Below are positions 50,350-56,785 of a stretch of 64,000 nt of DNA, one piece after another; within the stretch, counting starts at the first letter, position 1, and the number at the start of each line of letters is the position of its first letter. The notes beneath the pieces are model-generated. The model was given only the letters and a program-made list of their open reading frames with translations, was not told where the DNA came from and did not search any database. Location: the NCBI RefSeq assembly GCF_024055795.1, contig NZ_JAMXMY010000013.1, positions 1 through 64,000 of the forward strand. Direction: 5' to 3'. A program made the translations under genes and the position numbers. Source of the DNA: Actinoallomurus purpureus. GTDB lineage: Bacteria > Actinomycetota > Actinomycetes > Streptosporangiales > Streptosporangiaceae.

Positions 50350-51303
50350 TCAGTCACGCTCGGGGCCGGGCCCGACGCCCGGCGGCTCTGGCCGCGCGTG
50401 GGAGATCCCGGAGACTTTGTCCGGGTTCATCACCCACATGATCTGATCGATGCCCTGAGCCGAAGCACTGACCGTCAGCAGGGCGACGAGGGTCTCACCG
50501 CGCGAGATCAGCACACCTGGTCGTCCGTTCGCTTCGACCCACGCGATCGTCGTACCAGGCCAGAACCTCGATGCGAGTGCCCCGATGAACTTCGCAACGC
50601 GGGCTCGGCCGACCACGGGCTTCCGCGCGGCACCGCGTGCTCCACCGCCATCGGAGTAGCTGACCACATCGGCGGCGAACAGCTCTTCCAAAGTGGTGAG
50701 GTCACCCGTCTGGGATGCGGCGAGGAATGCCTCCAGCAGGCACCGGTGCTCGGCCGAGCTCACCGGCGTGCGGCGATCGGCGGCGAGGCGCTTGCGCGCG
50801 CGGCTCACCAACTGGCGGGTGTTGGCCTCGCTCAGCTGAAGAATCCTCGCGATCTCACCGTACGGATAGTCGAACGACTCTCGCAGAACATACGCCGCCC
50901 GTTCCGTAGGCGAGAGCCTCTCCAGCAAGAACAGGACCGCCAGTTCCAGCGCCTCGCCTCGCTCGGCTCCGACCTGCGGATCGGCGCTGGTGTCCACGGG
51001 CTCGGGAAGCCACGGCCCGACATACGTCTCCCGCCGCTTCCGCGCGGATTGCCCGACGTTGATCGCAAGCCGCGTCGTAATCGTCGCAAGGAACGCTTCC
51101 GGGTCTATGACGGCCGTGTGGTCGGTGGCCTGCCACCGCACCCAGGTATCCTGCACGACGTCCTCGGCCTCGGCCGAACTGCCGAGCACGCGATAGGCGA
51201 TGCCGAAGAGACGCGGCCGCAAACCGACGAAGACCGAAGCGGCCTCATCGAGCGCACCGGCCTCCGAGTCCTCTGGCTGTATGACCACGATCGCCTCCCC
51301 CAA
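50350..51303 (-). CDS. sigJ: ECF sigma factor, SigJ/ECF41 type with SnoaL-like domain
   Basis: A 317-residue factor. Region 2 is seen in FGIAYRVLGSSAEAEDVVQD and region 4 in RLSPTERAAYVLRESFDYPY with YGEIARILQLSEANTRQL. A SnoaL-like C-terminal domain follows, containing the ECF41 motifs SDGGG and NPDK. In ECF41 this domain controls activity without a separate anti-sigma factor. Typical targets are adjacent oxidoreductase or decarboxylase genes; the neighbours here are a methyltransferase and, beyond a gap, cytochrome b. Confidence 0.92.
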   Translation of the reverse strand: MGEAIVVIQPEDSEAGALDEAASVFVGLRPRLFGIAYRVLGSSAEAEDVVQDTWVRWQATDHTAVIDPEAFLATITTRLAINVGQSARKRRETYVGPWLPEPVDTSADPQVGAERGEALELAVLFLLERLSPTERAAYVLRESFDYPYGEIARILQLSEANTRQLVSRARKRLAADRRTPVSSAEHRCLLEAFLAASQTGDLTTLEELFAADVVSYSDGGGARGAARKPVVGRARVAKFIGALASRFWPGTTIAWVEANGRPGVLISRGETLVALLTVSASAQGIDQIMWVMNPDKVSGISHARPEPPGVGPGPERD

Positions 51304-54400: not shown

Positions 54401-54961
54401 GTGCCCGCCTGGAGGCCGGGTAGGTGCCAATCGTCTTCGTGCCCTGGTGCCGTTGGACAAAGCCGTCGGCCCGCGTGGCACGTCCCTCCGGACGCTATCG
54501 GTCCAGCTTGCACGGCTATAGGACCGAGGAGGGTGCCCCGCGTCGCCTGGGCACGGGGCGTGCTGATGGCAGAACGATATCAGAGGATCACGAAGGGTGA
54601 CTAAGGAAAGAAGCGGGCCTCCGACGCCAGGCGGCGCCGGCGCGCTCCCAGTCGTTCCGGCCCTGGTGGCGCTGACGGCAGGCAGGGATCAGTCAGGGCG
54701 TCCGGCGCCGACGATGGGTGTGCCGACGTCTGGGGCTGGCCCGGGTTCGATGCGGGCCTAGATGTTGCCGAAGCCGTTCCGGTGGATGACGCCGGCCTAG
54801 GGTCGCCTGTCCGGTGGAGCCGGTCGGACGACAACCCGCCTGGGCGACGTTTTACCTGGTCAAGGCGCCGTCGCATACCGAGTTGGCGGATAGTATCGGT
54901 TTCCTGTCGTTATATGTACATTGCACCGATCTTGGGGCGATGTGCTTGGACGGAGGTATCG
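54401..54961. other. Upstream region of the membrane-anchored sigma-like gene
   Basis: No gene supported. The right end, around 54885-54930, is AT-richer (GATAGTATCGG, GTTATATGTACATT) and probably holds the promoter of the following gene. Confidence 0.35.
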
Positions 54962-56785
54962 GTGTCCCTGACCGAGGCCCTACGGGCGGGAGCTCCGCAG
55001 GCGTTCGGCGCGCTCTACGACGAGTACGCCGAACCGCTCTACGCCTATTGCTACGTCATGGTCGGCGTGGAGGCGGACGATGCGCTGTGCGACGCCTTCA
55101 GCGCGGTCGCCCGCCATCCGGACGCCGTCCCGGGCGACGACACGGAGTTGCCGGTATGGCTTCACTCCCTCGCCCGGGCCGAGTGCCTACGACGCGGCGC
55201 CCTCGCGCGGGCCGTCGAGACGACCACGTCGACCGACCCACTGCGACGCGCGCTGGCCCTCTTGAGTCCCGAACACCGTGAGATCCTGGCGCTGGCGAAT
55301 GCTCTCGATCCAGAGCAGACCGCCCAGGTTCTCGGGGTGACGCGGGAGACCGCCGAGACATTCGCCCGGGAGGCGCAACGGCGCCTGGAGGAGGCCGCCG
55401 CCTCCGTGAGCAGCCGGGAGACACGGGATTCGGTCATGCTCTCCCCGCTGAGCGGGGAGGCGCTGCACCGGCTGGTGACGCTGGGGTACGAGCCTCCGGC
55501 GGGACAACGAGAACGGGTGCTGTCCTCGTGCGCGACGATCGCGCGCGCGCCCGGCGAAGCAGCGGCGGCCGCCGCCGATGGCACACGCACACTCGACGGG
55601 CCCTCCGCACAGGCCGCGCCTGTCGGCGTGGGATCGGCCGGCTGGGAGTCCATCGACGCGGCGTGGGCCGAGGATTCGAACGCACGTGACGGCGAGCAGC
55701 CGCTGCCCGTCCGCGGCAAGCACGCCACGCAGATGAAGTCATCGGTCAGGAGCCGATTCCTCCCGGTCGTGGCCCTGGTGTCCTGCGTCGCCGCGGTCGC
55801 GGGAGCGGCCTACGCGTTGTCCAGTTCCGACCGCGCTCACGAAACCGGCGCGGGCCAGAGCGCGCGGCCGAGCCGTCCAGCCCAGCCCACACGGTCGGGC
55901 GACCAGACGTCCCCCTCATCCAAAGCGGCCACCTCGGACCCGAGCGCGTCGCCGATGCCGACCCGTAGCGCCGCCACGCCTACGACCGCGACACCTCGAC
56001 GCAGCACCGCCGCTGCCGCCGACTCGAGTTCGGCGACCCGGACTCCACCCGCCAAGCCGACCCGATCCGTGAAGGCGACCCCGACGAGCGAACAGAGCTC
56101 ACCGACTGAACCGTCCCCGACGCCCAAGCCGACTCCGTCCGCCGAACCGACTCCGTCCGCCGAACCGACTTCGCCTGCTGAACACACGCCGGGTTTGCCG
56201 ACCAAGCGGCCGGGCCGGTGGACGCACAGGCCGAGGCCGCATCACACTGCCACGGCATCCTCGGGGCGGCCGGGCCGGTGGACGGCCAGGCCGAAGCCGC
56301 ATCACCCGCATCACACTGCCACGGCATCCGCGGGGCGGCCGGGCCGGTGGGCGACTGGGCCGAAGCCGCATCACACTTCCGCATCGGGTGACGGATCTGC
56401 GGAGGGGCCGGGCCGGTGGGCGACTGGGCCGAAGCCGCATCACACTTCCGCATCGGGTGACGGATCTGCGGAGGGGCCGGGCCGGTGGGCGACTGGGCCG
56501 AGGCCGCATCACACTTCCGCATCGGGTGACGGACCTGCGGAGTCGGGTGACGGATCCGCGGAATCGGGTGACGGACCTGCGGAGTCGGGTGACGGATCTG
56601 CGGAGTCGGGTGACGGACCTGCGGAGGGGCCGGGCCGGTGGGCGACTGGGCCGAGGCCGCATCACCCTGGCGGATCGGGTGACGGACCTGCCGGATCGGG
56701 TGACGGACCTGCGGAGGGGCAGCGGAGCATGGGTGGTCGAGGCCCTGGTGGGACGGAACCGCGCCCGTGGCGCCCCCAGTGGTGA
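54962..56785 (+). CDS. Membrane-anchored sigma-factor-like protein with a repeat-rich extracytoplasmic region
   Basis: A 607-residue protein from GTG 54962 with GGAGG upstream. Residues 1-145 resemble an ECF sigma factor: region-2-like FGALYDEYAEPLYAYCY and region-4-like LLSPEHREILAL with EQTAQVLGVTRETAETFARE. After a linker, one membrane span (about 266-286, FLPVVALVSCVAAVAGAAYAL) leads to a long Pro/Thr/Ser region (about 290-420). Next come repeats with PGRWATGPKPHHTSASGDG and a 7-residue SGDGxAE series. The predicted topology is N-in with the repeats outside. It may be a tethered sigma factor or a surface protein with a degenerate sigma domain. The N-terminal domain alone could be released by proteolysis; that is inference. 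Confidence 0.78.
   Translation: MSLTEALRAGAPQAFGALYDEYAEPLYAYCYVMVGVEADDALCDAFSAVARHPDAVPGDDTELPVWLHSLARAECLRRGALARAVETTTSTDPLRRALALLSPEHREILALANALDPEQTAQVLGVTRETAETFAREAQRRLEEAAASVSSRETRDSVMLSPLSGEALHRLVTLGYEPPAGQRERVLSSCATIARAPGEAAAAAADGTRTLDGPSAQAAPVGVGSAGWESIDAAWAEDSNARDGEQPLPVRGKHATQMKSSVRSRFLPVVALVSCVAAVAGAAYALSSSDRAHETGAGQSARPSRPAQPTRSGDQTSPSSKAATSDPSASPMPTRSAATPTTATPRRSTAAAADSSSATRTPPAKPTRSVKATPTSEQSSPTEPSPTPKPTPSAEPTPSAEPTSPAEHTPGLPTKRPGRWTHRPRPHHTATASSGRPGRWTARPKPHHPHHTATASAGRPGRWATGPKPHHTSASGDGSAEGPGRWATGPKPHHTSASGDGSAEGPGRWATGPRPHHTSASGDGPAESGDGSAESGDGPAESGDGSAESGDGPAEGPGRWATGPRPHHPGGSGDGPAGSGDGPAEGQRSMGGRGPGGTEPRPWRPQW
56341..56626 (+). repeat. 69-bp and 21-bp in-frame tandem repeats
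   Basis: Three nearly identical 69-bp units (56341, 56410, 56479; 23 codons each) are followed by five 21-bp units (56522-56626; 7 codons, SGDGPAE/SGDGSAE). Both periods are multiples of three, so copy-number change keeps the frame of the surrounding gene. Confidence 0.9.

Follow-up and report, generated by a model that had tools for sequence, protein, structure and literature searches.

We have analysed a gene lying within a stretch of 64,000 nucleotides from Actinoallomurus purpureus (contig NZ_JAMXMY010000013.1, positions 1 to 64,000; the whole of this stretch is termed the window). The gene is a real and intact open reading frame (54962..56785, + strand) that begins with GTG and encodes 607 amino acids, and its coordinates and parts are as the first-pass annotation of the sequence had described them (Table 1). 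An N-terminal domain resembling an extracytoplasmic function (ECF) sigma factor is followed by a linker, a membrane span and a long tail. The position of the start codon is common to the orthologues of the same type (i.e. six further proteins, collectively termed window-type with that of the window), being ATG in two of the six. A longer reading from a GTG at 54782 (667 amino acids) was rejected, as both the ribosome-binding site and the orthologue starts point to 54962.

The highest hydrophobic-span score in the protein is 2.14. The net charge flanking the span is +5 on the N-terminal side and -1 on the C-terminal side, so that the N-terminus is predicted to be cytoplasmic and the C-terminus outside. 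AlphaFold confidence is low across this stretch. The earlier proposal of an ECF-like fold joined to one predicted membrane span, with the tail predicted to lie outside, is supported.

Table 1. Features of the gene and the region preceding it, in window coordinates.
Feature	Position	Strand	Basis
Conserved upstream block: TTTRCCTGNTCA box, then GGATANTATCC palindrome-like box (54888-54898), then A+T-rich stretch	54851..54919	+	
Ribosome-binding site GGAGG	54952..54956	+	Sequence
Sigma2-like subdomain, residues 1-84	54962..55213	+	Profile and structure matches, residue alignment
Sigma4-like subdomain, residues 88-150	55223..55411	+	Residue alignment, AlphaFold2 model, structure comparison
Cytoplasmic linker, residues 151-265	55412..55756	+	Sits where relatives carry a fused zinc-motif segment
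Single predicted transmembrane span, residues 266-286	55757..55819	+	Hydropathy and flank charge
Pro/Ser/Thr-rich outer stalk, residues 287-415	55820..56206	+	Composition, alignment
Tandem-repeat tail, residues 416-598: six PGRW and nine SGDG units	56207..56755	+	Tandem Repeats Finder, unit comparison
C-terminal end EPRPWRPQW, resembling the ends of several orthologues	56756..56782	+	Alignment
Stop codon	56783-56785	+	Sequence

Residues 1-150 match the Pfam families Sigma70_r2, Sigma70_r4 and Sigma70_r4_2 below gathering scores only (E 0.006-0.011). With phmmer, residues 1-142 match BldN in PDB entry 6dxo (E 1.5e-9), and NCBIfam ECF models are matched with E values as low as 4.8e-9, well short of the cut-offs of those models. 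Both sigma2 and sigma4 folds are present in the AlphaFold2 model as judged by structure comparison, the predicted local distance difference test score being 95-98 over residues 1-80, and the domain is predicted to adopt the closed shape of sigma factors bound to an anti-sigma protein. Over residues 1-150 the ratio of nonsynonymous to synonymous substitution (dN/dS, from simple Nei-Gojobori counts) is 0.23-0.62 against the six orthologues, and in all six pairs it is below that of the linker, span region and tail. The sigma-like domain is conserved, and the gene is not junk.

The residues expected to contact promoter and core polymerase were compared by aligning 83 family members with 13 ordinary ECF sigma factors of the same genome, these being the ones found among the own-genome loci and in the window rather than the full set of the genome. 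Scanning named genomes gave 79 loci of the family, of which 72 are in these residue tables (L054, L070, L101 and L117-L120 are left out). Loci L001-L041 contribute 15 (L001-L006, L008-L013, L029, L037 and L041); the distant own-genome copy L007 and other relatives in that series lie outside the tables. The individual positions have the roles that we take them to have from ECF structures. In the helix that recognizes the -35 element, positions 132, 134 and 137 are basic in 10, 9 and 9 of the 13 ordinary factors, and in none of the seven window-type proteins, where the residues are E at 132, L or F at 134 and E or D at 137. Position 139 is basic in 8/13 ordinary factors, in 2/7 window-type proteins and in 47/50 of the egt-type relatives (egt denoting ergothioneine). 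In region 2.4, which recognizes the -10 element, N or R at 73, D or N at 77 and R or K at 80 are each absent from all seven window-type proteins. The sigma2-like subdomain of the window protein lacks the N73, D77 and R80 of ordinary ECF factors while retaining W66, A71-R72, D40, D44 and F46. One of two groups of relatives carrying a zinc motif retains N73 in 5/9 and R137 in 5/9 of its members. Since position 139 is kept in the egt-type, and N73 and R137 are partly kept in this zinc-motif group, the loss of contact residues is graded across the family.

The core-binding region 2.2 is mixed in the window-type proteins. An absence of core-binding residues from the alignment had been named in the first-pass annotation as what would refute its proposal of a sigma domain, and such an absence is seen in part; E39 is acidic in just one of the seven and the Q43 class (Q, S or N) occurs in none, while D40 is kept and position 44 is D in all seven. 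A useful comparison is with ECF52 proteins of the type of Streptomyces coelicolor SCO4117. SCO4117-like proteins were recognized by the combination of a sigma domain, a zinc motif and an NPCBM domain in seven of eight regions (one encodes a kinase), and six of them were used. All six have R132, R137 and R139, and the window protein has none of these.

Two cysteine residues, C30 and C75, are both present in all 83 aligned family members and are both present in just two of the 13 ordinary factors. Note that the corresponding sites in ordinary ECF factors are occupied by small hydrophobic residues, so that a packing role for the pair is as likely as redox chemistry.

As judged by sequence, the window protein is a member of a multi-copy family of the Streptosporangiales. 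Matches at E <=1e-5 were found in 38 of 60 genomes (its own and 59 relatives), including all eight of the genus. Its own genome has copies at C2:193555 (54% identity over residues 1-214) and C44:47834 (48%), and more distant ones on C52 (three), at C22:15823 and on C16; the three on C52 are zinc-motif copies and form a cluster. A tree was calculated from 77 of the 96 aligned rows, 19 egt-type rows having been dropped for speed, and it should be read with the warning that long branches meet at its root. It has two clades apart from the ordinary ECF factors. One, the zinc-motif clade, comes mostly from Nonomuraea and other Streptosporangiales, and the other, which includes the window protein, is found in the Thermomonosporaceae. 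Within the latter the seven window-type copies, that of the window included, form one group (support 100/99), which lies among the Actinoallomurus members of the egt-type clade.

The two clades differ in the segment between the sigma-like domain and the membrane. The motif C-x24-H-x3-C-x2-C is invariant in the 18 aligned proteins of the zinc-motif clade, and HxxxCxxC occurs at none of the 56 loci of the window's clade. A motif of this type is a hallmark of zinc anti-sigma domains, and it is mainly on this basis that the zinc segment is taken as a putative anti-sigma domain. Profile searches were made with 47 proteins of the window's clade (i.e. the window protein and those of 46 of the 56 loci) and with all 18 zinc-motif loci. 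The zf-HC2 family weakly matches 11 of the 18, and none of the 47 matches it at E 1. A membrane span was detected at 55 of the 56 loci, L054 having none at the threshold used. A helix in the linker of the window protein lies around the motif YEPPAGQRERVLSSC (residues 176-190), and a P..LRxxVL-like motif is found in the linkers of 7/7 window-type, 48/50 egt-type and, for the two zinc-motif groups, 14/16 and 5/9 proteins. Comparison of profiles by hhalign gave a probability of 97 between the window-type and egt-type linkers. The egt-type linker gave 1 and 41 against the two zinc-motif groups and 0.1 against ordinary anti-sigma proteins, and the two zinc-motif linkers gave 23 and 44 against the ordinary anti-sigma proteins. 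That the linker might simply be what is left of a zinc segment is weakly supported.

Most members of the window's clade lie beside genes of ergothioneine type, at least one of which is present in the fetched stretch at 50 of the 56 loci. Names for the neighbouring gene clusters come from the Pfam families that their representatives in L046 and L049 match (GCS2, FGE-sulfatase/DinB, GATase and Methyltransf_33). EgtA was called at 47 of the 56 loci, always on the opposite strand, the family gene divergently adjoining egtA. The egt-locus copies are L046, L048, L049, most of L051-L095, L102 and L105, and in the window's own genome L134, which is the C2 copy. The six loci with no such gene in that stretch are five window-type copies and L047, where the contig begins 931 bases upstream. 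Ergothioneine-type clusters were found at none of the 18 zinc-motif loci, where the neighbours include NlpC/P60 (11/18), pyrophosphatase (9/18), DacB (11/18) and Zincin_2 (10/18). The placement in the tree, and the existence of an egt-locus copy elsewhere in the genome, indicate that the window gene arose by a duplication specific to the genus and has moved away from the egt locus.

No partner is evident in the neighbourhood of the window gene itself, and no adjoining gene was found that all window-type copies share. The window contains an ECF-type sigma factor with a C-terminal extension at 50350-51303 (- strand), ~3.7 kb from the gene, which we take to be ECF41-like. At the egt locus of the same genome an ordinary ECF sigma gene (L134:9876-10568) directly follows the family copy, and it is a possible partner of that copy. 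A Rhomboid_2-type gene was called at 20 of the 56 loci; its GPS and GH motifs are conserved in the alignment, and the product could be a membrane protease acting on this ECF-like family. Other copies (L135 on C44, L142 on C52, L116 and L140) adjoin a protein with SBP_bac_11 and VWA domains, called by Pfam for L135 and L142 and by similarity only for L116 and L140.

An alignment of the seven window-type upstream regions shows a conserved stretch of some 70 bp ahead of the gene (Table 1), and the sequence farther upstream is not conserved. This block is probably a promoter or operator. The pattern CCTGNTCA-N18-32-GATANTATC occurs once per genome in six of the eight genomes of the genus, always just upstream of a window-type gene, and the reversed control pattern has no match in the genus genomes. 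With the pattern at one place per genome in those six, there is no sign of a wider regulon.

In the tail of the window protein, PGRW and P(K/R)PHH units each occur six times and SGDG units nine times, and the DNA contains one 69-bp and one 21-bp array. Two consecutive 69-bp units differ at none of 69 positions, and pairwise differences among the last four of the six units number 0, 4, 7 or 11. The PGRW/PHH repeats are absent from all seven other genomes of the genus, so that the array is found in one of eight. Window-type tails are 108-332 residues in length, about 320 in the window protein, and the seven can be aligned only in scraps, i.e. an RPKPxH-like stretch, a C-terminal end containing PW, and a pair of cysteines in four of the seven. 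These two cysteines are predicted to lie outside in L013, L044, L045 and L050, and there are none in the window copy. On average the seven tails have 20.5% Pro, 4.7% His and 1.9% Trp, compared with 1.0% His and 0.66% Trp in the egt-type; tail statistics cover 45 of 50 egt-type proteins and 13 of 16 and 8 of 9 zinc-motif proteins, the rest mainly running off contigs. Values of dN/dS in the repeat region (0-0.58) were set aside, since synonymous changes there are almost saturated and the alignment cannot be relied upon. The identity or near-identity of the 69-bp units, with their absence from related species, points to recent local expansion rather than a conserved sensor, and we read the repeats as recent slippage in what is probably a disordered stalk.

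Our preferred reading, to which we give a probability of about 0.4, is that the protein is a membrane-held pseudo-sigma acting by protein binding, i.e. a single-pass protein with a degenerate cytoplasmic ECF sigma domain. It would no longer direct transcription, acting instead at the membrane through protein-protein interaction. Most likely it would be a sigma mimic capturing an anti-sigma factor in the manner of PhyR, or else it might hold a genuine ECF regulator or the core RNA polymerase. Alphaproteobacterial PhyR is a precedent for a sigma fold put to use as a mimic. In the window protein the state of the wall or of redox may be coupled to this grip by the outer Pro/Ser/Thr-rich stalk, which the repeats would only lengthen. 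It is the pattern of contact residues that favours such a binding device. An extension of this to the whole family, in which all are membrane-tethered pseudo-sigmas that have abandoned promoter reading, keep the anti-sigma-bound shape and titrate an anti-sigma factor, with the window gene a genus-specific spare copy having a freely evolving tail, seems to us rather unlikely as a complete account. On that account the C30/C75 pair and the egt linkage in the Thermomonosporaceae suggest that the family may couple thiol/redox or wall state to the availability of sigma.

The protein might alternatively be a working sigma factor of the ECF52/53 type, silenced by its fused membrane segment until an outside signal triggers proteolysis and the freed domain transcribes a regulon of its own. 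We consider this possible but doubtful, and several observations weigh on its side and against pseudo-sigma action. The order of parts is that of ECF48, ECF52 and ECF53, for which proteolytic release is expected (PMC8999054). Truncation of SCO4117 that removes its zinc, membrane and carbohydrate parts is reported to affect the strain less than a full knockout does (PMC5826349). There is constraint on the sigma-like domain, D40 and D44 are kept, and the upstream block could be an autoregulated promoter. Moreover the SCO4117-type proteins themselves have A at 43 and L at 134, with D77 in only one of six, and the charge of their recognition helix is +1, the window-type range being -1 to +2. The PhyR_sigma-like profile also matches two of ten control sigma factors, and does not match the window protein itself. 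The shared architecture and the partial likeness to ECF52 favour a releasable sigma. Since ECF52 shares the low helix charge and the losses at 43, 77 and 134, the argument for a pseudo-sigma is carried by positions 132 and 137 and not by charge alone; the SCO4117-type keeps both of these basic residues and all seven window-type proteins have lost them. The lack of the zinc motif throughout the window's clade, and of any wider regulon marked by the upstream pattern, also counts against release. A straightforward releasable sigma factor, as first proposed for this gene, is not supported; the window-type proteins keep D40 and D44, while several -10 and -35 contacts and Q43 have been replaced and E39 is acidic in one of the seven.

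The first-pass annotation had also envisaged the repeats as a sensory domain. Functioning as a sensor for metal ions (through PHH) or for wall polymers (through PGRW) that signals to the sigma-like domain would be consistent with the greater His and Trp content of window-type tails relative to the egt-type, with the His/Pro stretches in the tails of other species and with the cysteine pair in four of the seven. Yet a repeat confined to one of the eight genomes, with its last four units so little diverged, in a tail of such variable length and alignable only in scraps, is explained by recent slippage; we therefore rejected the repeat tail as a conserved domain, and a sensory role for it is improbable. 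Least probable in our estimation is that the gene is a decaying, functionless duplicate, a second copy of the egt-locus gene confined to the genus and drifting with its expanding repeat. It does group inside the Actinoallomurus copies, the other window-type copies do not all have its neighbourhood and its tail is unstable, but the dN/dS over residues 1-150, the intact frame in 7/7 window-type genes and the upstream block conserved in the same seven all oppose decay.

Membrane-fused ECF proteins are assumed to be sigma factors awaiting release. If promoter reading has been lost in this actinobacterial family while the fold is selected, part of the 'sigma factors' annotated in such genomes would be binding devices, and counts of ECF regulators would be too high. 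The egt-cluster linkage in the Thermomonosporaceae provides a testable entry point to the signal of the family. By contrast the repeats, looking like ordinary slippage products, are a poor guide for experiments.

The architecture had been thought new, but membrane-fused ECF-like proteins have been described before, some of them with a Pro-rich outer tail. In ECF48, ECF52 and ECF53 an ECF domain is joined to an anti-sigma segment and to membrane helices, ECF52 adding a Pro-rich tail (PMC5826349, PMC8999054). The actinobacterial ECF48 and ECF53 are described as having a zinc-finger segment, with one to two membrane helices, fused C-terminally (PMC8999054). The zinc-motif relatives fit this published account, by description only, whereas the window's clade differs in having no zinc motif. 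A lineage lacking the zinc motif, with contacts lost and tied to the egt locus, was not met in the literature search results, and searches on the ergothioneine link and on degenerate or membrane-held sigma proteins returned nothing on this family among the listed results.

The closest likeness in layout is to ECF52, i.e. SCO4117 of S. coelicolor, another actinobacterial protein with an ECF domain, a cytoplasmic segment, a membrane helix and a long Pro-rich outer tail, for which a developmental role and a failure to overproduce the protein for binding tests are reported (PMC5826349). The Pro-rich extension after the membrane is found in the window protein too, following its span at 266-286. Unlike ECF52, the window's clade has no zinc-finger segment between the sigma domain and the membrane, and the 607 amino acids of the window protein have no C-terminal carbohydrate-binding Pfam match at E 10. 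Its sigma-like domain is 16.7-20.1% identical to the six SCO4117-type domains, 18.4-30.4% to the 13 ordinary ECF factors of its own genome and 31.9-41.3% to 25 zinc-motif relatives; judged by identity alone, it is not close to the SCO4117-type.

The likeness to PhyR lies in the PhyR_sigma-like profile, which 32 of the 47 proteins from the window's clade match weakly, and in the presence of PhyR structures among the model and profile matches. The window protein differs from PhyR in being anchored in the membrane, in coming from another phylum and in having no response-regulator receiver domain by Pfam. In fold and overall sequence the sigma-like domain resembles BldN and other free actinobacterial ECF factors, as in the match to 6dxo, but BldN-type factors are soluble and mostly keep the promoter-contact residues.
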